From NCBI GenBank assembly GCA_001942415.1, contig MKJX01000077.1, forward strand, positions 1 through 64,000: 64,000 nucleotides of DNA, written 5' to 3'. The notes beneath the pieces were generated by a model. That model saw only the letters and a list, made by a program, of their open reading frames with translations, was not told the DNA's origin and did no database searches. This document shows, in pieces, positions 33,627 through 47,932 of the stretch. The translations under genes and the position numbers were made by a program. The stretch's first letter is position 1. Each line of letters starts with the position of its first letter. This DNA comes from Pseudonocardia sp. CNS-139. GTDB lineage: Bacteria > Actinomycetota > Actinomycetes > Mycobacteriales > Pseudonocardiaceae.

Positions 33627-33671
33627 TGGAGCCGCCTTGGGGAGTCGAACCCCAGACCTACGCATTACGAG
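33627..33671. mobile_element. attL: 45-bp copy of the tRNA-Thr 3' end
   Basis: These 45 bases are identical to 47856-47900, the 3' part (CCA end through the anticodon loop) of the intact tRNA-Thr gene at the right end of the element. The rest of the tRNA is missing here: after GCATTACGAG the sequence changes to CCGGCTCCC. This is the displaced original tRNA 3' end left by site-specific integration. Confidence 0.85.
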
Positions 33672-34245
33672 CCGGCTCCCGGCCTCTAGCCCGCCGTCCG
33701 GGCCCGTCTGCGCGGGTCCGGACGTGCTGGTCGGCCCCGTGACGACACCCGTGCAGACCGGCGTAGACGGCGAGCAACTGCAACCACGAGTGCAACCACG
33801 CTGATCATGTTCTGAGCGCGCCGGACGAGGCGCGCTCCTCGGTCGAGCCTTCATCCGGAAGGCTCCTCATGACTGACCGCATTCCCGCGCGCCGTGCCGA
33901 GGACGAGGCCGCCTCGGCGCTCAATCCTGCTCGGTTCACGGTCACACCGGTCCCCTCGGCGATGCAGTCGACGTCTTCCCGCGACAGATTGCACGGGACC
34001 GTTCTGCCGGGCCGCCTCGCCGGACTGGCGTCGGCCACCCCTGGCGGCGCCGGCCGCACGGTGCGCGCCGGAGGCTGGCGCACCGGGCAGGCCGAGCGAC
34101 GGCATCGGGGTGGCCATGCTCAGGCCGAGCCCGGCGGCCGGCTGGGCTTGTCCCATGTGCCATATCTGTCCGCGAGGAAGAACGACCGGACCGTACCGGC
34201 GAGCCGGAGCCGCTGTGGAAGCCGTCGTTCCCGAGCCCGGAGCTC
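33672..34245. other. left end of the element, no confident gene
   Basis: Apart from the attL-side repeats at 33776-33809, I see no convincing gene. Plus-strand frames are open in places (for example MTDRIPARRAEDEAASALNP from 33869), and in the phase of the replication gene the bases before 34246 read EPEPLWKPSFPSPEL, which may be its true N-terminal part. An origin of replication is expected near here, but no clear iterons are visible. Confidence 0.35.
33776..33809 (+). repeat. putative integrase arm-type repeats, left
   Basis: AACTGCAACCA, five bases, GCAACCA, then CTGATCATG. The same order AACTGCAACCA, five bases, GCAACCA and CTGATCATG occurs at 47785-47828 beside attR. In the excised circle the two copies would flank the core in direct orientation, as arm sites of a tyrosine integrase do. 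Confidence 0.5.
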
Positions 34246-35594
34246 GTGCAGCACGCGGCCGACCTCATCCCGCACATCAAGCCGGAGCCGGGAGACCTCG
34301 GTGAGGGCCCGCGCTGGGAGATCGTCGTAAGTCCCGGCGCGTTCAAGGTGCGCACCCGGAACTACGCGCGTGCCGAGCGGACGCACGAGCGAGCCACTGA
34401 GCGCCGTCGGAAGCAGATCGACGTGGCCGCGACTTGGGACGGCGACATCCCGGACCCACAGCCGACCCGCGGCACCATTACCGGCTGGACCCGACGCTCC
34501 CGAGCGCGGCTAGTCGAGCGCCTGTCTGACCTCGATTACACGAAGCTCTACGGCCGGTTCCACATCTGCTCCAGCTGCCGTGCTGAGTTCGACGCCGACC
34601 TCGACCGCTGCCCGCGCTGCCGCTCGGACCGCTTCAAGACCGAGGACCGCACCGGCCGGCTGCCAGCGATGCTGACCCTCACGTACCCAGGAGACTGGCT
34701 CACCGTCGCACCCTCCGCTGATGTGGCGATGGGCCACTTTCAGTCACTCTGCAAGCGGTACGCGCGGGCCTGGGGCGAGCCGCTCCGCGGGCCGTGGAAG
34801 AAGGAGTTCCAGGGCCGCGGCGCCGTCCACTTCCACATCTCGACCACCCCGCCGACGCGGATGATCACAGTCTCCGACCCAGAGACCGGCCAGCAGATCC
34901 GCGTCGACTTCAAGCGCTGGCTCTCGATCGTCTGGGCTGAGATTGTCGCCACCCGCACCCTGAGGAGCGCCGGAAGCACCTGCTCGCCGGGACCGGGGTC
35001 AACTATGCGCAGGGCTTAAAGCTCACCGATCCACGCCGCGTGTCGATCTACTTCGCAAAGTACGGCGCCGCCGCAACGGGCAAGGACTACCAGCACCGGG
35101 TTCCGCCGGAGTGGCTTGACACCGCGCTCACCTGCACCACCTGCGCCGAGGAGTACCGCCAGGACCTCGACGTGTGTCCATCCTGCGGTAAGCAGAACGG
35201 CCGGGCCATTAAACGGGGCACTGCGGGCCGCTTCTGGGGTTACCGTCGCCTCGACCGCCTAACAGCAACTCGTCAAGTCGCGCCACCCATTGGCTTAGCC
35301 TTGGGCCGCATTGCCCGCCGCTGGTACCGAGCGAAGGGCCTCACGAGGCAAGTCACTGTGAAGCGAGTTAGTCAATCGAACGGCCGCACCAGCTATCGTA
35401 AGGCCAGTGTTAGTAAGCAACTCTTTCCCCACAGCCGCGGCTTTCTTTGCCTCAACGACGGCGCGTCGTTCGCCGAACAGATAAGCAAGGCAGTCTCCCA
35501 CTATGGAACTCGCTTGACCTCAGAACCGATATGGTCCGGCAGCGTTATACCCTTGCAGGCGCACGATACCTTGATCGGGCGACCGGAAAAGTAG
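34246..35594 (+). CDS. HUH-type replication initiator (frame slip near 34947)
   Basis: Rolling-circle replication protein of the element, about 450 residues when corrected. Two Cys4 zinc ribbons are seen, CSSCRAEFDADLDRCPRC and CTTCAEEYRQDLDVCPSC. The strand PAMLTLTYPGDWL is motif 1, and GRGAVHFHISTTPPTRM carries the HxH metal motif (motif 2). After the frame change near 34947 the tyrosine motif region reads VNYAQGLKLTDPRRVSIYFA and KYGAAATGKDYQHRVPPEW. It ends RGFLCLNDGASFAEQISKAV, a common Rep tail. The start is unclear: GTG 34246 is the first start in the open frame but coding character seems to extend upstream. The last 75 bases overlap the end of the convergent FtsK-like gene. Confidence 0.72.
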
Positions 35595-38500
35595 GTCGCC
35601 CTTACCCAGGAGCGACTGAGCGCCACCCTCATCAAGAATGACGCGAGAGTCGACCGCTGACTGAACCCTGAGAGCCAATCGCGCGAAGTTGCTCTTCATT
35701 ACTCCTGTTACCACATCTGTAGACGGACGCTGCGTAGCCGCGACGAGATGGCCCCCAATAGCTCTCGCTACCTGATTGAAGCGGGTCACTAGCGTCTCGA
35801 AACGCTTGCGATCGGCCGTTGCCATCACCAGTTCCGCGAACTCGTCAATCAATACTACGAGCGGACGGAGTGGCGCTTGCAGTCCTCTCGCTGACGCATC
35901 GCGAAGCATGTCCTGGACATTGGTGATCTGGGCCGGATCATCACGCTCAATTGCATCCGCGGCATAGGCGTTGAACACTTTACGCCGTGCAGGAAGCCGG
36001 TCGTCCACAATCTCGGCGAGCAAATCGACAGCCCCTTCGACACCTGAATGATAGTCGGACGACGATTTCAAGTGCGGAGCCTTACGGAAGTCGATGTAGT
36101 CAGACATACCCTTCGCATCGATTATTACAACATCTAATTCCTCGGCAGTATAGAAATAGGTCAACTGCCAAAGGATCGAGCGCAAGAAGACGCTCTTGCC
36201 GCTACCAGTTGTCCCCGCCACGAGTAGGTGCGGGAGTTCATCAAGACCGACAATAAACGGCTTGTAGTCTAACTGCGCACCAAGAGCGATCCTTACTGAG
36301 CCCACCGCCTCACGAATTCCCGCCACCATCGATACGTCACCAATGTGTCGAGAACTCCGGGGAAGTTCAACACACGCGTAACCGGGTTCCTGAGGCCAGT
36401 TGGAGATGCGGACGCTACTAGTCCCCAATTCGCGAGCGATATCGCCCTCCTGCGACTGCAGCGTGGACAAGCGAGCACCGCGGGCCAAGCGGATCGGAAT
36501 CTGAACGACCGATGGGCCTACTGTGGCACGATCAACGTCAATCTCCCGCAGCGGCGCATTTCGAGCGATGAGAGAATCTCGAACTTTCGCCGCCCACTCA
36601 TTGAGAGGCTCGCCATGCTCCAGCTCTTCTTCGGCGATAGACGCGAGATCCTCTGTTGCTTCATCTCTGGTGTTAACTGCAGTAGGGGTCCTCTCATGAT
36701 CATTACCAGGAGAGCCGCTGTCGCCTGTGCCACTGTCACTACCATTGTCCGTAGCAGCGGGATCGGTAGATCCTTCAGCCTTCGCGGACCCTCCCGCTGC
36801 TGGCATCCCATCGCCATCTCCCGACCCAGCGCTCAACTCCATCAAGCCCTGGAACTCATCGAGGAGACTAGCGTCGAGTTCGACATGCCCACCGGCCTTG
36901 GACTGCAGGGCCCTCTTCAGCCAGGGAACACCAAGAGTCAGTACAGGCGTCCGGCCATCTGTCGCGACACGTGAAACCGCGTCCGCAGGCTCATTCGTCC
37001 CAACCACAAAGATCCGCGACTTGACAGTAACCTTTGTAGGCGCCTCGAACAACTTGTTGAGGGCTCGGACCCTTGCTTCATATTCAGCTGGCGCGTCAAC
37101 TCGGACAGAGTCCCACTGTTGCAAAGCCTCGAGGAAGACCTGCCGTTTGAGTATCTCCCGCCGAGACGGGGTCAGAGGGTCATCCGGATCGATACCGAAG
37201 ATCTTCCGAAGCACCTTCGCCATCTCATTGACCTGCTCAAGGGCTTCCGATACCGCTTCCGGTTGCGATCCTTCTGCCCAGTTGAGCGCGTCTGTGCGGG
37301 ACTTAACCTCAGCCGCCGTAACCACGACTTCGGACCCAGACCATGTCAAAGTGAGGAGATCAGCGCGCCGATCTGGACCCTCACGGAGGTTCAGCCACTG
37401 GCGCGCCGATTCGGTGTCCAGGCTCACGACCAGCGAACGCTCCTCCTCCGCAGATTCCTCCTGCAGATACGCAAGTACAGCAGCCAGGCCTAGACGCCCT
37501 AGGACCGAACTACTCGATAAGCCCCGCGGGCCTTGAAGAATCCCAGAAGACCTTCAGGCAGTGCCATCCTGACCGTCTTCAGCAAGAAGTCCTGCAATTC
37601 ACTCTGCTCAGGATGGATCCAGGTACTCTGCTGCAAATAAGTGAGGACCGGCTCCAAGAGCATCCGAGTGTTGCTGGAGTAGACGTACGCCACGTGCGTC
37701 CCTGCGATCAGGCGGCCGAGAAGTCGCAACTCCGCAATCTGGGACGGAGCAGCTAAAGGCGAGGCGCCCTCGCATAATGCGACCCACGTGGACAAGGTAC
37801 CCAGCTCGGCTAACGCCGACACAACGCTCTCCGCCAACAGCGGGGACCGCTCCTGAGTTGGTGGACCAAGACCTGTCAGGTCTTGCTGCATGTCAGCAGC
37901 CTCAATTAGGCGGCCGCTGCCACTCGAAGGGCGGATGACTGGCCTCGAGCTAATAGGATTGACGTTGAATGACCACTGCGTGATCACCGAGCCCTGCAAC
38001 GGGGCCGCGAACTTGGACGTGAACTTGCCTGGACTTGAATCACCTACATTGAACGCCACTACCAGATGAGGGCGGATTTTCTCCGCAACAAGCCGGCGTG
38101 GAAGGCTCGCGATTTCATCTCCGTCATGGACTTGGAGTTGGAACCTGTCGGGATCAGCCTCGGTGCTCGCCAACTCCTCGACGGCCTCGTCGACATACTC
38201 CTGCATCTCCTCAACATCACGAGATGCTGTAAACAGATCCAAGCGCACCCGCTCACTTCGCGATCCGCCGAGCCATTTGATCAATGACTTCGCCAACCGC
38301 GGAGAAATCCCCACCAGGGCGATCGAGAGGCTCAACTGCGTGTATGGGTGAACATTGATGAACCGTTCAATCAGTTGCTGAACAGTTCGGCCAACCTCGC
38401 TGCCCTCTGCCTGCCGCGGGCGAGTCTCATAGATTGGCAGGTGGTTGTTATTACCCGAGTAGCTAAGCGCACGCTTACTGTCGCCAACGTTAACCGAAAT

Positions 38501-40090
38501 TCCAGGCATGCCGGGATCGACTGCCGAAATGAGGAGCTCAACGAAATCATCATCAATCTCATTAGCGCTCGCACGAATTACCTTTGCTGCGGCGACCCGT
38601 GGCTCAACGACGATCGGGTGTAGGGGCAACAGATGCGCAGTAACTGAATCACCAGATACCGCGACCCGTATGTCGGACGCTGCGAGAACTTGTCCGACTT
38701 GGGTAACATACTCTCTATCTGCCGCGTCTAGAGATGAGTGAAGTTCACTTAAGCCTGCCCACAACTCAACCCAGGTATCAATAAGTTCGTCAGCCTGGGT
38801 CCGCAACCGCTCTGAAGTCGCGAAGAGTCGAACCCCCTCGTGAGGAAGGTGTCCGAGATAAGGCAGTAGGGCAGCGCGCTTCTCTAGCAGTCTCTCGCAG
38901 GCAGCCGCAGCACTGGTCTTGAGCGGTTCCGTAAGACGCCCTTCCAACGTCTTTAGGATCCGAAGAGCCTCAGCCAGATCGACCCAGGCGCTCTCTCGAA
39001 CGCTCTCTTCACTCGTTTGTCGGGCCGCGGCCTGGAGATCTACCGTCGAACCGGCGACCTCCGCGTAGTGGTCGACCCCGCCCGGCGAGAGCCACTCAGC
39101 GAAGTTGTCCACCGGTGCCGATTCCCACGGCACGGCTGACCCCGCGATAGTGATGGTCCCCTCTTGCGCGGCCTCTGACTGCGTTCCAGAGTTATCCGAA
39201 AGTTGCCTCAGGAAGTCGTCCTCTGAGAAGGATGAATCCTGCACGAGGGACAACAACGATGGCGCGGTGTACTCGCTCTTAGGGCTAGACTTCTTCTTAC
39301 CCTGCTTCTTGCTTACAGATCGGAAAGCCGACCGGATGGTCTCGTAGTCCAGTTTCGCGAGTCTCTCATTGCGTGGTGACCTCGCGTAGGCTCGCACAGC
39401 TGCGAAATCGGTCGAGTCGAACAGCTTCACAAGAAGCCGCTGAACCGTAGCCGCATCGCTGCTTCGTAATTGCGTGACCAGCGCGGCATTGTCTGCAAGT
39501 CGGCCACGATCAATGTCCAGGACGCCGGCGTCTGGCAACAGGCCGATTCGCCAAAGCTCAGTTCTCGCAAAGTCCGGCATCTCCGCGCCCGCAGACTCAA
39601 GTGCGTTGCAATAGTCGGCGCAGTCAATGAGATCTGCCCGGCTGTCGTCACGAAGATTTCCTAATAGGCGTCCGAGCGGAACAGGCAACGCCATCTCTTG
39701 CACCTGCTCAATTGTTCTACCGAAGAGTGTCGCTCGCACCTCGGTAGCCCGCAAAACTCGAACGTTCAGGAGGCCCGCCGCTCTATTCCGCTCAAGATCA
39801 CCAAAAATGAGAAGCGGGAGCTCCGACTCCGGATCATCACGCCACGCTATCGCAGTATGGACGTCGCGAGTGATCTCAATAGGCCCTGGCACGAATTCTC
39901 GGTCATTCTCGACGAAAACGGCCGCGCGGGCGCGAAGATCATGGCCCGCCAATTGCTCTAGCACTTCGTGGATCGGGAACGGCGTTGAAAGCTCCGGGAT
40001 GCGCAGATACGCCAAGTTAGATCGGAGGCGGTGCAGAATAGTCGTCGTGATTGCTTCGGCTAGCCGTGTCTGTACACTCTTCGCCGTCAT
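35520..40090 (-). CDS. giant nuclease-like/FtsK translocase protein, DptH-like (frame slip near 37493)
   Basis: Last gene of the four-gene operon, about 1523 residues. ATG 40090 overlaps the preceding stop. The N-terminal 850 residues have no motif I can name except GDLERNRAAGLLNVRVLRAT and WVALCEGASPLAAPSQIAEL. Two frames meet near 37493; adding one base gives the smooth join RVVRSVLGRLGLAAVLAYLQ. Then RRADLLTLTWSGSEVVVTAA followed by EVKSR looks like a PD-(D/E)xK nuclease core. An acidic Gly/Ser linker leads to a complete FtsK motor: Walker A LLVAGTTGSGKSVFLRSILW, Walker B LRPLVVLIDEFAELVMA, sensor HLVAATQRPSTDVVTGVMKS and RVQSAVDSRVILDEGGAQSL. The layout resembles the large HerA/FtsK protein DptH of phosphorothioate-dependent restriction; it probably translocates and cuts foreign DNA. 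Confidence 0.7.
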
Positions 40091-41534
40091 TTCCTCACCC
40101 ACAGAGTTCGCGGATCAAGTACCTCTGTCACACCGTCTGAGTAGCGGCGCGCTAGACCGACCGCGGCCAGAAGGCGTGAGAGTTCAGCCTGGTTCTGTTC
40201 TAGGTCTTCTTCCGAGGCGCGTGGATGTAGGCTGCGAGCTGAGGCCCGGGACCCACAGCGACCCCGAATCGGTCCTCAAGGTTCAGCAGCCAGTCCGACA
40301 TCAATAGGCTCTCAACGGGCTCATCCGGCATACCACCGAGCACAAGCGCTGGCAGAAGTGCCGTCTCCGCGCGAAGACGAGGCAGTCGTCCGCGCCGCGG
40401 GCCTATGAACCCACAGTGTCTTCCAACCGCATGGAACCAAGACCTGTGCTTGTTCCCCATTCCGGCGACGAGAAGATCCCTCAGCGTGTTCGCAAGCGCG
40501 GACGCCCGGTCCTCCTCGCTCCGGAGATAGCCGTCATAGACTTGGGCCGCGTGCGACAGGACAGCCTGCGAGCCGCCCGACAGCGAGTAAGGCTCGCATG
40601 TGTTCAGGAAGTACTTGGCTTGCGCGTCGTCAGGATCGCCGTCGAACTCCTTATTTACGAAAATGCGAAGTTCGTGCGCAAGCCATTGTTCAAACGCGAG
40701 GTGGACCGCCGTCAGCGACTCACTCGACGATTCGCGCAAAGAGGATAGTTCGCCTGGCGGTGTACACTCCAACAGTAGCGCCCGGCGCTCTCCACCCACT
40801 GCCAATGGGGGCAATTGCGCATAGGTCAGCAAGCCAACCCAAGTGGCGGCGTTGGCTAGAGTTTGAACGGCGAGTAGACTGTCACAGTCGGCGGAGAGCA
40901 GTTCCAAGCATCGACGTAGAAGAGCTGTTAGATCGTCTGCGAGAGCAGACGTGGGGTCGCGCCTAGTCCACTCAACGGGCTGCGGCGGTTCGGCGAGAGA
41001 CCACCCGGACAGTTGAGTGTCATCAATCAAAGCACGCTCAAGTCCCCAATGAGGGTTTGGTTGCGGCATCTTCAGTCTCTCCACGCCCGCTTGCAGAAGT
41101 GACGAAGCGGCGGGGTCATTGAGCACTAGACCTGCACTCAGCGTACCGATCCCGAGGTGGATGGAGTCACTTGACGTCAGTCCAACGTGAGCCACCTGGA
41201 AAGAATGGTTGTTCAAGAAGACTGCACGATCCGTCGCAACCATTGCCGATACGGCTCGTCTGAGCAGGTCGAGTTCCTTATCACTCGTTGGCAGATCTAG
41301 TTTGCCTTTTGCTCGATCCCGCAGGTCTTCCTGCCCCACCTGCCATGTTCCGTCTTTGGTTGCTACGAAGTCCGCCGCAAGTCTTGTCTGTCGACGGCCC
41401 GTAAGCGAGTGGTGCAAGAACCCGTTCAGCACATGGACAGGCTGCGGCGATATGGACGTTGGGCTGAAGACCAACTGGCTCTCAACGTTATCGTTGTACC
41501 AGTCTCTGAGGTTGACCCCGACTATTGACTTCAC
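40087..41534 (-). CDS. third operon gene, unknown function (DptG position; frame slip near 40215)
   Basis: About 482 residues, from ATG 41534, overlapping its neighbours on both sides by four bases. As given the frame stops at 40200 after YIHAPRKKT; adding one base near 40215 extends it to EEDLEQNQAELSRLLAAVGL and ARRYSDGVTEVLDPRTLWVR, with TGA overlapping the next ATG. I recognise no domain. It is mostly helical, with recurrent FLNNHSFQVAHVGLTSSD and HHSLTGRRQTRLAADFVATK segments. Position and size match DptG, the middle partner of DptF and DptH, but the similarity is positional only. Confidence 0.6.
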
Positions 41535-43120
41535 GAAAGTACCTCGAGACCTCGATCTTCGTGTCTAACCCTGAACTGGTATGTGGCGCGGTCGCGGTGA
41601 TCGTAGACTCGAATCTCTGGGTCATCCGTCGAGCTGACCGGAGCTTGGGCCATGAAAAGGTCGATCGCAAAGTCGAGCATCTCTTGATTCCGGTCAACGG
41701 CCAGCGTTCGGCGACGCTGCAACTGCAACCAGGTTGCGAAGTCGACCGTGAAGGTGGGGCTACGATCCGTCCAACTCAGTAGGAGACGATCAGGGAAGTA
41801 CCCAGATGTGGAATGCCGTTCACTGTCATCGGAGTGGGGGATACGCAATCTCAGAGCCTCAATTGACGCCTTCGCGGCAGCGGCGAGAGCGGCAGGACGG
41901 CGTTGCGCTGCCATCCCATGATGGCGTGAAACCCACAACTCGGTTTCAGTCGTCGACGCGATCCGATACTTGTTTAGCAGATGTACGATTTGTCGAGCAG
42001 CGGCCCTGGGGTCAGCAACTGCGGTGCTCAGAAGGCTCTGATAGCGAGGGGCGGCACTGTGCTGACTCAAGACAGAGGAGACGTCGAGTCCTTGCCGAAT
42101 AGGAAGTATGCCCGTTTCGCAGAAGCAAAATGGAGCATCCCTAAGGAGTCGGAATCGCGGTGGGAGACCACCGGCGACGGCCCAGGTAGGTAACATCGAA
42201 TGCGATACTCGAAAAGTTTCCGAGCCAAAGCGCTCCGTCGACACCTGGCATCGGGATCTTTATAGGATCAAAGGCTGCGCTTAGCGCACGACACAAGGGA
42301 GTATCGTCGTCAAAGAGTCTCATCCAGAAGAAGCCGTCAACGTATTGGCTGTTAGCTTCCATTGGACATGTGTGGCCGAAGAAGAGATCGATAAAGAACA
42401 CCCAGAGGTCGCGGGCTGTAAGGTGATTGCCTGCGCCTGAAAGTAGCTGCAATAGTTGGGGAATACGCTCCTTTGCGCGCTTGGACTTGCGCAATAACGC
42501 CGCACCCCTCACGCGAGGGCAGTTCTTATTCTTACCACATGTCGCGCAAGGGGTTACGTGCTGAAGCACCATCTCGAGCGCGCGGATCGCAAATTCGGAC
42601 CGGGCGAGCTGCCTTCCAGCCAGATTGAGGATCAGCGCACCCGGCGGGTCCTCGACTGTTTCCCCCTGGGTCCGCTGATGGACGACAGTCTTAGCGACTC
42701 GAAAGAAGCCGCCCTGCGGCAGAGACGCGAGGCTCGCCAATGGGCCTTCATTAATGGTAATTAGAAGTGCCCGCTTGCGTACCTGCGCCTCATTTACAGC
42801 ATTGATAATTGCTTCATCGAGGAGTGCGCTGGCATCTCTGACAAATAGGACGCTTCGGGGGGAGTCTCAGCCCCAAGTTGTGTGTCGTTTGTAACTTCGA
42901 TGCACGTGCGGTTGGGAAGTCGAGAGAGCGCCTGCTGCGCGAGGTGAGACTTTCCATCTCCAGCGTTACCGCTAATAATTACTATTCGGCGATCTTGCAA
43001 TGCTTTGACGATCTTATCTGTCAGCGGGTCCGCAATATCCAGGGCCTCCCTGACGTCGGGAGTCCACTTGTCGGCGTAGACAACGCCGCGTTCGAAGACG
43101 GAGCTAAGCGACGCAGGCAC
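41531..43120 (-). CDS. P-loop NTPase, DptF-like (frame slips near 42860, 42185 and 42090)
   Basis: Second operon gene, about 530 residues. It reads from GTG 43120 SLSSVFERGVVYADKWTPDV, with Walker A RRIVIISGNAGDGKSHLAQQ. At a run of six G near 42860 the frame changes; it continues SVLFVRDASALLDEAIINAV and RKRALLITINEGPLASLASL (sensor/Walker B region). A Cys cluster follows, TPCATCGKNKNCPRVRGAAL, and then LTARDLWVFFIDLFFGHTC. Two further slips near 42185 and 42090 bracket SLGMLHFASAKRAYFLFGKD before the C-terminal part. The NTPase type, with GDGKS and the ITINEGPL strand, is seen in DptF and related defence NTPases. The number of slips makes details near 42100-42200 uncertain. Confidence 0.65.
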
Positions 43121-43183
43121 GAGTCGGCCGTTCCTCTCGCAGACGATCTTGTTGCAAACCTCCAGTGAACAGTATCCGACCCG

Positions 43184-45243
43184 TCAGGAGCTGCGCAGCG
43201 TGCTCCCCTGCTGGGCAACCTGGAGTGTCTCAGCCAGATCCGCGGTCCGCCCTGCTCGCTCGACTAGGTCTGCCAGCCTAGGTTCAACCCAGCGCTGCCT
43301 CCACTGCGTCGCGAGTTCCGCAGCGGTGGGCTGCAGCCCAACCTTCTCGTCCGACCAACCGAACAGCACCCCCGGAACGTCCGTGACCAGCGGTAGCGCG
43401 TACAGCGGTCGGCGAGTGTCGTGCCTCCTGAGGTCGGGAAGGTTCAGCCTGTCGAGGGCTCGCCCGACCTCGCGAAAGCGCGCGCCGGATCCTTCCCCGA
43501 ATGAGCGCGTAATGTGTCGGTAGCCGTCCCACTCGCTGTTGAGCCGGCTGGTTGCTGACATCGTAGCCGATGATATGTGAAAGCTTCCAAATCCTGAAGT
43601 CTCACCATATTTTATCCAGCGTCTATGTCCGGAGCGCACTCGAGTGTACTGTGCGCTATGGCCTGGATACAGACCGGACGTCAGTATCACAAGCGGCCCA
43701 GGATTGGGCACGCGCTGCCTGACCTCGTGTAGGTAGACTTGTTGGGCGATCTGCCCGAGGGGCCTGTCTTGTCCCCACTCGTTCAGCGCCTCATACGAAC
43801 CGGCGAGGGCGGCCATGAGCTTTCCCGCACGCAGACCGTTGAATGGTGGCGCAGCACCACAAATGCTAAGTTCGATAGCGACGAAGCCCATATGGTAGTG
43901 CCATATCTTGCGAAGGCCGGTCTCCACCCTTGCCGCGACTTGCGGATCCGCGAGTTCTTCGAGTGGATCTGATGCGCGGATGGCTTGTTGGACGGCGGTG
44001 GCGCCTCGACACAACTCGGCGGCAGTTTCGGCCTCTTGCAGATGGCTAGGTGCTGAGCCGCATTAGTTTTGTCGCCACGCTTCCGGGCCGAATTGAACGC
44101 TTCTCGGTTCCCACTGGCGATGGTCCGCAAGTCTGATTCACTGCGACTGGCGAGTGCCGCTTCAATTCCCTGTGGGTTGACAGACTGCAAGAGGGCGGTG
44201 AGCGTTGTCATCGTGGCTACGAGCGCGCCCGTGATGTCGCCGGAGCGCTTGATCGCGGCAGTGAACCCGCGGGAGGTAGTTGCACCATCCGATCCGATTA
44301 GGATACCTAGCCACTGGTCCCGCGCCTTTATCTCAGGCACTACGTTACGGAATTGAATGATCCCGATTGGCGTCGTCCTGTGCCGTTTATCGTTGAGAAG
44401 GAATGACACCTCCCGACCCGGTGCCGAACGGTCCGGGGTCATGGACCACGTTGCGCGTGCCGCCTTCCACAGGTTCCGGCCCTGAAGGTCTTCCACGCGC
44501 CTTAGTTCAGGCTCAAAGGCATCAGCGTCAATCAGTCGCAGAATCGCTGCCGGATTATATGCTCCGCTCGAGTCGAGAGACTTCATTACGGCTGTGAGGC
44601 GTGGACGCTCCTTGTCCTCGACGAGGTCGCGCTCGCGCATGTTCTCGTATAGACGACGGAGAGCCAGCCTCTTCAAGTCCTCCGGGATGCTGTCGCTTTC
44701 CCAGATCGATGCAAGATTAGCAGCGTCCGTTTGCCACCATGGGGTAGTAGCCACCGAGTACGTAATCTCGAAGGACGAGCACGGCCGTAAGGTATGCAGC
44801 CCCGTCTCGGCCTGCTGCGCCGGCCGCCTGCCGTGCCGCTGCCTCGAGCACGCGGACGATCTGTGACTGCGACTTCCCCTCCATGAGGGCGATAAGTTCT
44901 CTGAACTCCGCCTGGTACACGCCAAGGCCCTGCGGATCGAACGCCTTCAACGCATCGGCTTGTACCCGAACCTGGCGGCCTGAGACCTCGGCTGGTGCTC
45001 CCATGATGAGTTGGACTGTAGCTCCTCGGGGGGCAGCCGACCAGACAGGGTGCAGGCCGGCGAGGCGGTGACGTACAGGGACGCATGGTACGACCCTGCC
45101 TCCGGTGGGCCGGCGAGGGTTGCCGTGATCAGGCTGCAGACCGTCTCCGGTGTCGCCGCGGGGCATGCGGCCGCTAGACAGCGGACGATCGTCGTGACGG
45201 GCTCGCATCGGGATCGATTGCCTATACTGTGGAACTCCTGCAC
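43184..45243 (-). CDS. long DUF4338 (DruA-like) protein, first gene of operon (frame slips near 45040, 44735 and 44015)
   Basis: About 686 residues from GTG 45243. Residues 1-230 are helical and unassigned (QIVRVLEAAARQAAGAAGRD, DYVLGGYYPWWQTDAANLAS). The rest matches DUF4338, the domain of Druantia protein DruA: PIGIIQFRNVVPEIKARDQW, MGFVAIELSICGAAPPFNGL followed by RAGKLMAALAGSYEAL, then VILTSGLYPGHSAQYTRVRS and IKYGETSGFGSFHISSATM. Frame slips are a missing base near 45040 and near 44015 and an extra C in CCCC near 44735. DUF4338 proteins are thought to be nuclease- or transposase-like DNA-interacting factors. Here it leads a NTPase-translocase operon that lacks the DruE helicase, so this is not a canonical Druantia system. 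Confidence 0.68.
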
Positions 45244-45687
45244 TCGATGCTCTGCAACTATTGCCGTGCCTCCGGATCAGGCTTGCAAAGAATCCGTCGT
45301 CAATACCTGCCCGAGTTGGTAGGGCCGAGTCGCCGCAGTATCCGCACGGGGCTACAGGTAGTTCGGCCCAAAGATTGTCCCGACTTGTGCAATCTACCCT
45401 CCGCTGATGTAGTTTCTGAGCATACGTCGACTGCGAGGTGGCGCATGAATAGGTCAGGGTCTTCGAACAGTTCTGGATGGGCCCTACTCCTCCCTCGCGG
45501 CGCGCACCTACCAGCCGGAGCGCCGGCGGGGGCCTCGGGTGGAGCGCCCGGCGGACGAACGACCGAGGCCCCCGCCGGCCACTTCTGGTAGCCCTTGGGT
45601 GCGTCGTGAGGGAGGCCGACCTCCTGAGCGGTGCCGGGTCCAGGGCGGCGCCCTGGTCGCCGAAGGCTCCGCCGGAGGCGGCCAGGC
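45244..45687. other. non-coding gap between operon start and Nudix gene
   Basis: No gene is supported. Left part: promoter region of the minus-strand operon, about 200 bases. Centre: the long hairpin 45508-45591. Right: a second symmetrical element, CCAGGGC-GGC-GCCCTGG (45648-45664). GC rises abruptly at 45480, marking the edge between the AT-richer operon and GC-rich element DNA. Confidence 0.5.
45508..45591. terminator. long interrupted hairpin after the Nudix gene
   Basis: A perfect 17-bp inverted repeat (45522-45538 and 45563-45579; arms contain GCCGGCGGGGGCCTCGG and its complement) is enclosed by outer arms CTACCAG (45508-45514) and CTGGTAG (45585-45591). It lies about 100 bases past the Nudix stop and 265 bases before the start of the operon, so it would isolate the operon from read-through. 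Confidence 0.6.
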
Positions 45688-46116
45688 TCAAGTGCGGACG
45701 AGGTTGGTGCCGTCGTGAGCGCGAGTGACGACACCGTCCGGGAGAAGGGCATCGGTGACGCGGACCGCGTAGGCAGGGTCCATTTGCTCAGTGATCTCGT
45801 CGACGGTGAGCCAGTCGACGGCGCGGGCCTCGTCGGTACTCGGGACGGCGGTGCTCTTTGGGTGGCAACGGAAGACCATCGCCACGATGCCGCGAGGCAG
45901 GTTCTTGTACACCCCGGTGAGACGTTCGACCTCGACCTCGACGCCGGTCTCCTCCAGTACCTCGCGGCGGACACCAGCCTCGAAGGTCTCGTCCAGTTCC
46001 AGCACGCCACCGGGGGGTTCCCAGTGGTGGTTGTCGCGGCGCTGGATCACGAGGATGCGGCCGTCGTCGCGGACGACGATCCCGGCGACGCTCACGGAGT
46101 GCTTCGGGGTCCCCAC
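45688..46116 (-). CDS. Nudix hydrolase, Pif-like element protein
   Basis: A 142-residue Nudix protein from GTG 46116. The Nudix box is complete: GGVLELDETFEAGVRREVLE followed by ETGVEVEVE, matching Gx5Ex7REVxEExGV. In pSAM2 a Nudix protein, Pif, prevents redundant transfer between cells that already carry the element and is encoded near the GntR regulator KorSA, exactly the neighbourhood here (GntR gene divergent, 135 bases apart). A house-keeping role in nucleotide clean-up is the alternative. Confidence 0.82.
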   Translation of the reverse strand: MGTPKHSVSVAGIVVRDDGRILVIQRRDNHHWEPPGGVLELDETFEAGVRREVLEETGVEVEVERLTGVYKNLPRGIVAMVFRCHPKSTAVPSTDEARAVDWLTVDEITEQMDPAYAVRVTDALLPDGVVTRAHDGTNLVRT

Positions 46117-46207
46117 GGTCCGGCGCTCCCGTCACTGCTGGTCATGGCTGATCTGCGCGCTCACGCGCGATCTGTCGCGGTTGCTGTCGTTCACTGGTGT
46201 TCCACCC

Positions 46208-46236
46208 GTAGGCTATCGCTACCTGCAGTTGCCTAC
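46208..46236. promoter_or_regulatory. GTAGGC/GCCTAC inverted repeat before the GntR gene
   Basis: GTAGGC (46208-46213) and GCCTAC (46231-46236) are perfectly inverted with 17 bases between, and enclose a possible -10 sequence. The site lies 16 bases before the GntR start in the divergent Nudix-GntR intergenic region and could be the regulator's own operator. Confidence 0.45.
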
Positions 46237-46251
46237 TCGTCTGGAGAAGCT

Positions 46252-47027
46252 GTGTCGCTCGGGTCCCTCGACCGCAGCGACGATCGCGCGCCCTACAAGC
46301 AGATCGCCGACCATCTGCGGGGCGCGATCGAGCGGGGCGTGCTGGAGCCGGGCGACCGTCTGCCCTCCGAGGCGGACCTGATGCGGCACTACGACATCGC
46401 ACGTATGACGGCGCGGCAGGCGATTCAAGAGCTGCGCACCGAGGGGCGAGTCGTAGCCGAGCAGGGGCGCGGCGTCTTCGTGCGGTTGCCCGCTCCCGTG
46501 CGGCGGCTCGCCTCCGACCGCTTCGCACGTCGACACCGGGACGCCGGCAAGGCAGCCTTCATCGCTGAGGCCGAGAAGGCCGGCGTGGCGCCGAGTGTTG
46601 ACGACATCCAGGTGAGTCGCGGGCCGGCTCCGCAGCCCGTCCGCGAGCGGCTGGGGCTCGACGAGCCCGGTGAGGTCGTCATTCGCTCGCGGCGGTACCT
46701 GGCCGAGGGGCTGCCCGTCGAGAGCGCAGTCTCGTATATCCCCGCGGATCTTGCAGATGGGACGGCGATCGCCGAGCAGGACACCGGCCTGGCGGCATCT
46801 ACGCCCGCCTGGAAGAGGCGGGGCACGAGTTGGCGCACTTCACCGAGGAGGTGTCCGCGCGGATGCCGACGGTCGAGGAGCGGCGCCGGCTTCAGATCCC
46901 ATCAGGCACGCCGGTCCTCCTCGTCGTGCGGACCGCCTACGACACAGCAGGGCGAGCGGTCGAGGTCTGCGACACCGTGAAGGCCGCTCCCGCCTACGTC
47001 CTGGAGTACGACTTTCCCGCTCGCTGA
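46252..47027 (+). CDS. GntR/UTRA transcriptional regulator, KorSA-like (frame slip near 46793)
   Basis: About 259 residues from GTG 46252 (GGAG ten bases upstream). The DNA-binding domain reads YKQIADHLRGAIERGVLEPG, DRLPSEADLMRHYDIARMTA and RQAIQELRTEGRVVAEQGRG, the standard GntR wing. The C-terminal UTRA domain contains VIRSRRYLAEGLPVESAVSY and, after one missing base near 46793, GGIYARLEEAGHELAHFTEE and VEERRRLQIPSGTPVLLVVR. KorSA of pSAM2 is a GntR repressor that keeps the element integrated by silencing its replication and transfer genes; a comparable role is inferred. Confidence 0.82.
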
Positions 47028-47110
47028 CCTGCCGATTCGGCTGCAGTCGTATCGCGTCGTCTCAACTCCTCTAGTTGTCTGAGTGATTCGTGCTACCGTC
47101 TAAGAGTGAG

Positions 47111-47124
47111 GTCCTCTAGAGGAC
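47111..47124. promoter_or_regulatory. perfect palindrome GTCCTCTAGAGGAC
   Basis: A fully symmetrical 14-mer, 31 bases before the start of the small element gene at 47155. A similar half site CTCCTCTAG lies at about 47065. It is a plausible operator for the GntR regulator encoded just upstream. Confidence 0.55.
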
Positions 47125-47154
47125 TTTCCGGCACACATCGACTCGGGAGACCCG

Positions 47155-47549
47155 GTGATCCAGAACTTCACGGTGGACCAGAGCAAGACCTTCAACTCGC
47201 TGCTGCTGCTCGCGGTCGAGCCGAAGACCGCCTTCGGCGACCAGTACCGCCAGGAGGTGACCAAGGAGGGAACGCCGAAGTGGACCGCGCAGATCGCGGC
47301 CGAGTTCACGGCGTTCGGGCGGTCGCAGCGCGAGCTGATCAACGTCGGGCTGGTGAGCGACAAGAACCCGGCGAGAACCTCGCGCCCGGCACGCAGGTGG
47401 AGATGAGCGACTTCGAGATCGGGGTGATGGAGAAGCGGAACCGCGAGGGGCAGGTGACCGGTGTGCAGGTCTGGTACCGGGCTGGCGGCCTCCGCCCGAT
47501 CAGCAACGGGCACGGCAGCAAGCCGCGGCCCGCGGCGGAGGTGGCCTGA
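47155..47549 (+). CDS. small element protein of unknown function (frame slip near 47372)
   Basis: About 132 residues from GTG 47155, behind GGGAGA. It reads IQNFTVDQSKTFNSLLLLAV, EPKTAFGDQYRQEVTKEG and, after one missing base near 47372, GENLAPGTQVEMSDFEIGVM with QVTGVQVWYRAGGLRPIS. Proteins with this size and pattern are, to my recollection, common as the first gene of the replication-transfer region in actinomycete integrative elements, but I know no function. The palindrome just upstream and the two tiny genes that follow suggest a regulated operon which is now cut short at attR. Confidence 0.65.
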
Positions 47550-47550
47550 G

Positions 47551-47688
47551 ATGGACCAGCGCACCGAACGACACGCGTCGGCTATGGCCAAGGCCGGGGT
47601 GGGGCTCCTTGCGCTCCCCCTTGCCAAGCTGCCGCCGATCACGCATGTCGGCCTGCTGAACGACCGCGGCGGGGTGCTCGTGGAGTGA
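47551..47688 (+). CDS. short element ORF, 45 residues
   Basis: ATG 47551 directly follows the TGA of the previous gene. The product, which includes MAKAGVGLLALPLAKLPPIT, has one weakly hydrophobic segment that could enter the membrane. Tight spacing to both neighbours supports translation. Unknown function. Confidence 0.45.
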   Translation: MDQRTERHASAMAKAGVGLLALPLAKLPPITHVGLLNDRGGVLVE

Positions 47689-47786
47689 CCGACTACGAAC
47701 GCCAGGTCCTCGACTGGATCGGGTGCTGGGAGACCCACACCGTGGCCGTCCTGGCCGCTCTTCTTCGACGCGCCCGCCGAGCGTAA
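47685..47786 (+). CDS. short element ORF, 33 residues
   Basis: GTG 47685 overlaps the stop of the previous ORF (GTGA). The peptide reads TDYERQVLDWIGCWETHTVA and ends with an Arg-rich tail. Its coupling to the upstream ORF favours a real gene; function unknown. It ends one base pair from the right-hand arm-type repeats. Confidence 0.4.
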   Translation: MTDYERQVLDWIGCWETHTVAVLAALLRRARRA

Positions 47787-47828
47787 CTGCAACCAGAAAC
47801 GCAACCAGCTCGACCGAGGCTGATCATG
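47785..47828 (+). repeat. putative integrase arm-type repeats, right
   Basis: AACTGCAACCA, GCAACCA and CTGATCATG in the same order as at 33776-33809. The block lies 28 bases from the att core on this side, against 104 bases on the left side. Confidence 0.5.
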
Positions 47829-47855
47829 CAATCCAGCGTTGTCGCTGGTAGGTGG

Positions 47856-47900
47856 TGGAGCCGCCTTGGGGAGTCGAACCCCAGACCTACGCATTACGAG
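47856..47900. mobile_element. attR core within tRNA-Thr
   Basis: The 45 bases from the CCA end to the anticodon loop are identical to attL at 33627-33671 and mark the right border of the integrated element. Confidence 0.85.
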
Positions 47901-47932
47901 TGCGTCGCTCTAACCGACTGAGCTAAGGCGGC
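47856..47932 (-). tRNA. tRNA-Thr (anticodon CGT)
   Basis: The minus strand folds as a complete tRNA: acceptor GCCGCCT paired with AGGCGGC, D-arm with GCTCAGTCGGTTAGAGC, anticodon stem ACGCA/TGCGT around loop CTCGTAA (anticodon CGT, reads ACG), T-arm GGGGTTCGACTCCCC, discriminator T and encoded CCA. The 3' 45 bases double as attR of the integrated element; the copy supplied by the element keeps the tRNA intact. Confidence 0.95.

Follow-up and report, generated by a model that had tools for sequence, protein, structure and literature searches.

Closest Described Systems

The SspFGH module of phosphorothioate (PT)-based defense damages DNA lacking the PT mark and is toxic in the absence of PT, as described in PMC8092258. 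For the DndFGH module, Rakesh, Aravind and Krishnan (2024) report action without PT, as well as its presence in archaea, cytosine methylases in Dnd-like loci and a DUF4338 domain fused to DndF; they propose that standalone DndFGH recognizes invader signals alone, identify DUF4338 as a GNAT and suggest a backup or suicide effector role for it when fused to DndF (PMC10853773). Here we analyze a 64,000-nucleotide stretch of Pseudonocardia sp. CNS-139 (contig MKJX01000077.1 of assembly GCA_001942415.1, positions 1–64,000; hereafter the window), in which a gene encoding DruA, a DUF4338 protein, precedes three genes of the SspFGH/DndFGH kind (F, G and H). We consider it probable that these genes constitute a PT-independent four-component FGH restriction system, related to SspFGH and DndFGH, with DruA as a true partner.

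The F-G-H part resembles that of SspABCD-SspFGH from Vibrio anguillarum FF-93 (PMC8092258), comprising a Walker A protein, a protein of unknown function and a giant protein with an FtsK-like C-terminal part, and most copies find their best named match in PADLOC SspF, SspG or SspH. However, the sspBCD PT genes adjoin the module in Vibrio, whereas none were found here and druA precedes F. The locus shares with standalone DndFGH (PMC10853773) the decoupling from PT and the link of DUF4338 to DndF, and its FtsK-alpha-bearing motor corresponds to clade 2 of Rakesh et al. In that work DUF4338 figures as one occasional fusion to F, whereas the loci studied here mostly carry it as a co-directed gene of its own, in Actinomycetota, Halobacteria and Bacteroidota; no count of the separate arrangement was found in the accessible part of PMC10853773. 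Neither the separate, recurrent four-gene DruA-FGH unit, nor its proximity to DruE, nor the parallel with a methylase slot, both discussed below, was found in the literature searched, which included PMC10853773, PMC8092258, PMC12458937, PMC12839542, PMC13192584 and PMC8565338, with supplementary data outside the search. A preliminary description of the locus had presented the system as a candidate undescribed one. This holds, within that literature, for the separate four-gene arrangement, but not for PT-independent DndFGH or the DUF4338-DndF fusion, which are already published; what is new is a recurrent unfused DruA-FGH system.

Gene Organization and Protein Families

All four genes lie on the minus strand (45004–35520). 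Gene 1 (43184–45004) encodes a GNAT-like DruA/DUF4338 protein (PF14236), two frame pieces of which match Pfam DruA at E 9.2e-10 and 4.7e-14; its start, earlier placed at 45243, is corrected to an ATG at 45004. A gap of 63 bases separates its stop codon from the GTG start (43120) of gene 2 (41531–43120), encoding an SspF/DndF-type P-loop protein recognized by PADLOC SspF (E 4.3e-10 on one window piece; E 3.1e-14 in the intact copy of Micromonospora sp. MA102). The protein carries the Walker A sequence GNAGDGKS followed by TINEGPL; in the F family alignment, G-x-A-G-D-G-K and N131-E-G-P are invariant in 19 of 19 proteins, and four Cys residues are invariant in the close family. Of the NCBIfam Dpt models, only DptF appeared among the 25 families listed for the piece scanned, at 10.7 bits and below the cut-off.

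Gene 3 (40087–41534) encodes an SspG/DndG-type protein, a family characterized by a triple winged helix, of about 482 amino acids in relatives, with 28 homologues of 475–500 amino acids; PADLOC SspG matches it weakly in the window (E 0.0036) and at E 3e-11 in the MA102 orthologue. Gene 4 (35520–40090) encodes an SspH/DndH-type giant in which a PD-ExK nuclease is followed by FtsK_alpha (PF17854, E 1.1e-6) and an FtsK_SpoIIIE motor (PF01580, E 2.2e-33), with PADLOC SspH matching the C-terminal piece at E 1.1e-51. The MA102 orthologue (1485 amino acids) is collinear with both window pieces, and the D...ExK nuclease core is kept in 8 of 8 aligned H proteins, the ExK element of the window aligning with those of its relatives. 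In the H proteins of this module, SF2-like, beta-sandwich, TRD and inactive methylase domains characterize the N-terminal part; an AlphaFold model of MA102 H residues 1–1140, built on an alignment of 5 rows, had a mean pLDDT of 51 and was not used. Four-base overlaps occur at the gene 2/3 and gene 3/4 junctions and, together with the short gap, bear out the coupled four-gene operon of the preliminary description; its reading of DUF4338 in gene 1, a GDGKS Walker A in gene 2, an ExK element with a full FtsK motor in gene 4 and F-G-H homologues in genes 2–4 is likewise confirmed by the family matches and alignments.

Recurrence of the DruA-FGH Unit

Recurrence of the four genes together had been named beforehand as a check, and it was found in Micromonospora, on haloarchaeal plasmids and on Hymenobacter plasmids. 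A scan of 160 Micromonospora genomes detected F at E 1e-10 or better in three: MA102, whose intact copy has the gene order of the window, G740, with the same DruA-F-G-H order, and G747, where DruA and F-G-H are convergent. In this last genome, the H protein (L037:4161-8858) carries a HerA/DndH-type motor in place of an FtsK-alpha one, consistent with repeated capture of motors. Plasmids of Halalkaliarchaeum AArc-CO, Haloplanus GDY1 and Natrialbaceae AArc-T1-2 carry copies of the unit, and a Natribaculum longum plasmid has A, F and H, the three genes checked, in the same order and strand. Two copies, with some genes split, are present on the Halobaculum litoreum plasmid NZ_CP126157.1 (L029 and L030). 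In one Hymenobacter plasmid, DruA is fused to F (L024) and an insertion sequence lies between G and H; in a second, the circular record begins within DruA, which runs on into F, while H is split and an unmatched gene of 452 amino acids occupies the G position. Counting the window, 11 of the 12 loci have DruA either fused to F or as its immediate upstream neighbor on the same strand; DruA keeps its own gene in all but the L024 locus.

Linkage was also assessed independently by pairing F and DruA homologues whose longest contigs have exactly equal size. By this measure 51 of 79 F homologues paired with one of 110 DruA homologues; on contigs of at least 6 kb, 45 of 57 F and 17 of 21 G did so, whereas shifting the sizes as a control gave 0.24 pairs on average and at most 3. 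Other contigs speak against this linkage: 12 of the 57 F contigs have no DruA contig of equal size, including a 7.03-Mb contig of Micromonospora vinacea, and 36 of 81 DruA contigs of at least 6 kb lack F. The protein searches scored only candidates sharing most words with the query, so distant partners can escape them.

Other searches returned few copies. A gene 3 pattern found only MA102 among genome contigs, missing G740 and G747 and thus not being exhaustive, and found none in viral contigs. A class-wide search with residues 1–867 of gene 4 retrieved only the genome of origin (1 of 296), and an order-wide search with the F alignment at E 0.001 gave 8 of 397 genomes, namely the genome of origin and seven others, all weak (E 3e-5 to 7e-4) and set aside.

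Relation to Druantia

DruA (DUF4338) is common to this unit and to Druantia type I, the difference being the presence here of F-G-H. No PADLOC match to DruB, DruC or DruD at E up to 1 was obtained in the nine operon pieces scanned. The earlier statement that DruE is missing proved correct in all four actinobacterial carrier genomes scanned, where DruE1 gave only short matches in frames of 900–1058 amino acids; the DruE1 model also matches in 10 of 14 control genomes. Among haloarchaea, the AArc-CO copy of DruA-FGH has beside it, in divergent orientation, a DruE1 gene of full length (E = 0) and a DruD-like gene (E 1.7e-6), and GDY1 and AArc-T1-2 have the same layout by annotation alone; the annotation of the stretches retrieved around the two Halobaculum loci shows no DruE-like helicase. 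Because DruE adjoins some haloarchaeal DruA-FGH copies, DruA accompanies two different DNA motors.

Micromonospora G747 (L037:622-4156) and Leisingera (L026:11049-14791) each pair DruA with a GHKL-type, MzaB-like ATPase. In the latter, DruE1 follows the pair, making this locus a Druantia variant.

FGH Loci without DruA

As a contrast set, 396 Actinomycetota genomes were scanned with PADLOC SspF at E 1e-8, a threshold that misses the genome of the window, where gene 2 is broken. Three other genomes with an SspF-type gene were found (G066, G039 and G112), and BLAST detected no DruA within 36–38 kb around their F genes. In G066, a C5-cytosine methylase gene lies directly before F with a 4-base overlap (L074:15414-18502; PF00145, E 1.4e-56; best PDB match, HaeIII methylase), making a methylation-marked FGH system possible. 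The F proteins of G039 and G112 are fusions with NERD and kinase domains. The gene just before the NERD-kinase-kinase-F fusion of G039 (L078:13355-14779) has no PDB match; it resembles HsdS, the type I restriction specificity subunit. Since PF01507 matches in these three genomes are CysH/CysD-like only, FGH also occurs without PT outside DruA loci.

PT Modification Genes and Integrity of the Locus

The PT sulfurtransferase DndC (TIGR03183) is absent from the assembly of the window (G000) and from MA102, the best match being a 9.7-bit fragment within CysD of the former; as a positive control, the same model found DndC in 7 of 394 genomes of the class at E below 1e-197. PF01507, the PAPS reductase domain, matched only CysH and CysD in both assemblies, one CysH-like and two CysD proteins in G740, and one CysH-like and one CysD protein in G747. 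True DndC proteins score 32–36 bits with this model (three of three tested), compared to 120–167 bits for the matches in carriers, except for a 28.5-bit fragment contiguous with a split cysH. The accompanying SspD search had no positive control. None of the seven DruA-FGH plasmid records is among the best 60 of 768 DndC-matched plasmid records, chromosomes being unsearched; those 60 include all 30 with a match coverage of 80% or more. Conversely, no DruA was found around the DndC genes of seven genomes, where two weak H-motor matches (E 2e-5 and 1e-6) and one GHKL ATPase match occur. In agreement with the preliminary claim that dnd/ssp modification genes are lacking nearby, no PT sulfurtransferase was found in the carriers scanned, the assembly of the window being 78.5% complete in 250 contigs.

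That incompleteness is what would allow an ordinary PT system, its dnd/ssp modification genes hidden in the unassembled part of the genome. We regard this as very improbable, given that MA102 lacks DndC, that MA102, G740 and G747 have only CysH/CysD-like PF01507 matches, and that the plasmid records fall outside the DndC-matched set listed. The state of the operon raises a separate concern. As revealed by tblastn of intact relatives, frame changes break all four genes in the window, including one near the 3′ end of gene 3 and one near 37520 in gene 4, as might be expected of a dead, decaying cluster. However, genes 1 and 2 have intact near-identical relatives: P0186 (606 amino acids; 95–99% identity, with window pieces in two frames) and P0073 (530 amino acids; 97–100% identity in pieces), both on contigs of one size, 5017 bases. 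The P0073 entry is without a source and is marked as the window's own proteins are. Elsewhere in this assembly, the housekeeping gene cysH shows a split of the same kind. Because of these intact genes and the split cysH, the breaks are most likely assembly errors, and decay appears very improbable.

DruA Fold and Conservation

In the structural model, DruA is a split GNAT whose fold matches are GNATs, its GNAT core being surrounded by a long helical insert and a helical N-terminal part. The alignment of 47 DruA proteins contains 41 invariant columns, the invariant polar residues being R199, D231, K318, T436, Q446, Y447, R449, E498, R505 and H522. A nuclease role, one of two that the preliminary description had offered for DUF4338, is not supported, the modeled fold being that of a GNAT. 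The DruA profile had no PDB sequence match at E up to 1, and no DruA was among the matches listed in a literature search combining DruA with acetyltransferase or GNAT. Mom is a GNAT, a family in which motif A is recognized; Mom-type DNA modification enzymes are not among the structures listed for DruA, which shows nothing either way. Based on the model, DruA is a GNAT-fold protein that may catalyze acyl-CoA-dependent transfer.

Proposed Mechanism and Alternatives

By analogy with the published Ssp and Dnd systems, G would contact DNA, F would bind nucleotide and gate the complex, and H would translocate on foreign DNA, its PD-ExK domain introducing breaks that block replication. Since FGH is toxic to unmarked DNA and retains an intact nuclease core in a cell without PT, another safeguard is needed. 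We tentatively suggest that DruA provides self/non-self discrimination in place of PT, in the simplest form by marking host DNA with an acyl-type group, so that FGH would spare it; a modifying role is the simplest reading because a C5 methylase occupies the same slot in G066. Alternatively, self-protection could come from FGH itself if it recognizes nothing but invader signals, as proposed by Rakesh et al. for standalone DndFGH (PMC10853773). A bolder version of DNA marking, in which DruA represents a new kind of GNAT self-marking DNA with an acyl-type group, replacing PT or methylation, and the same mark also serves DruE, seems doubtful.

Two other roles for DruA deserve consideration. It may be a backup or suicide effector, acylating tRNA, protein or another host target after F senses infection, with FGH restricting DNA through its own recognition of invader DNA. 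Such a role was proposed by Rakesh et al. for DUF4338 fused to DndF (PMC10853773), and it agrees with the DruA-F fusion of L024 and with the NERD and kinase domains fused to F in other loci. However, DruA is separate in all remaining loci examined, is highly conserved, and also belongs to Druantia, in which DruE serves as the machine. More variation would be expected of an optional effector, and we find this role possible but less than likely. DruA might instead be a sensor or regulator, binding nucleic acid or acyl-CoA and holding FGH off until infection, with no DNA modification. The helical parts surrounding the modeled GNAT core would suit this function, unrestrained FGH can be toxic (PMC8092258), and DruA also adjoins other ATPases and helicases. 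The set of invariant polar residues from R199 to H522 nevertheless suggests, without proving, an active site, and we consider a purely regulatory role unlikely.

Carrier Island at tRNA-Thr

The operon is cargo of a small tRNA-integrated island, as the preliminary description had anticipated in placing it within an integrated element. The island spans 14.3 kb between exact 45-bp att repeats (33627–47900) and has a GC content of 61.6%, compared to 72–76% on its flanks. The far repeat (33627–33671) is identical to positions 47856–47900, the 3′ 45 bp of a tRNA-Thr(CGT) gene detected by ARAGORN on the minus strand (47856–47932). Besides the operon, the island encodes a frame-broken HUH rolling-circle Rep (33877–35591, plus strand; PF23343, E 2.3e-6 on 34246–35019), a NUDIX protein (45691–46131, minus strand; PF00293, E 4.4e-21) and a frame-broken GntR/UTRA regulator (46291–47024, plus strand; PF00392, E 7.5e-19; PF07702, E 1.7e-6). 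No integrase or transfer gene was found among the island open reading frames scanned. The combination of Rep, GntR and NUDIX resembles pSAM2-like elements, whose parts include RepSA, KorSA (GntR) and Pif (NUDIX).

Implications

The bacterial pairing of an FGH machine with DruA occurs in salt-loving archaea as well. The shared DruA ties Druantia to the world of Dnd and Ssp systems, and in the literature searched the DruA of Druantia has no assigned role. As SspFGH and DndFGH harm host DNA that lacks the PT mark (PMC8092258), PT-free FGH raises the question of what shields the host, and the presence of a GNAT in the slot held elsewhere by a C5-cytosine methylase makes this question of host protection testable.
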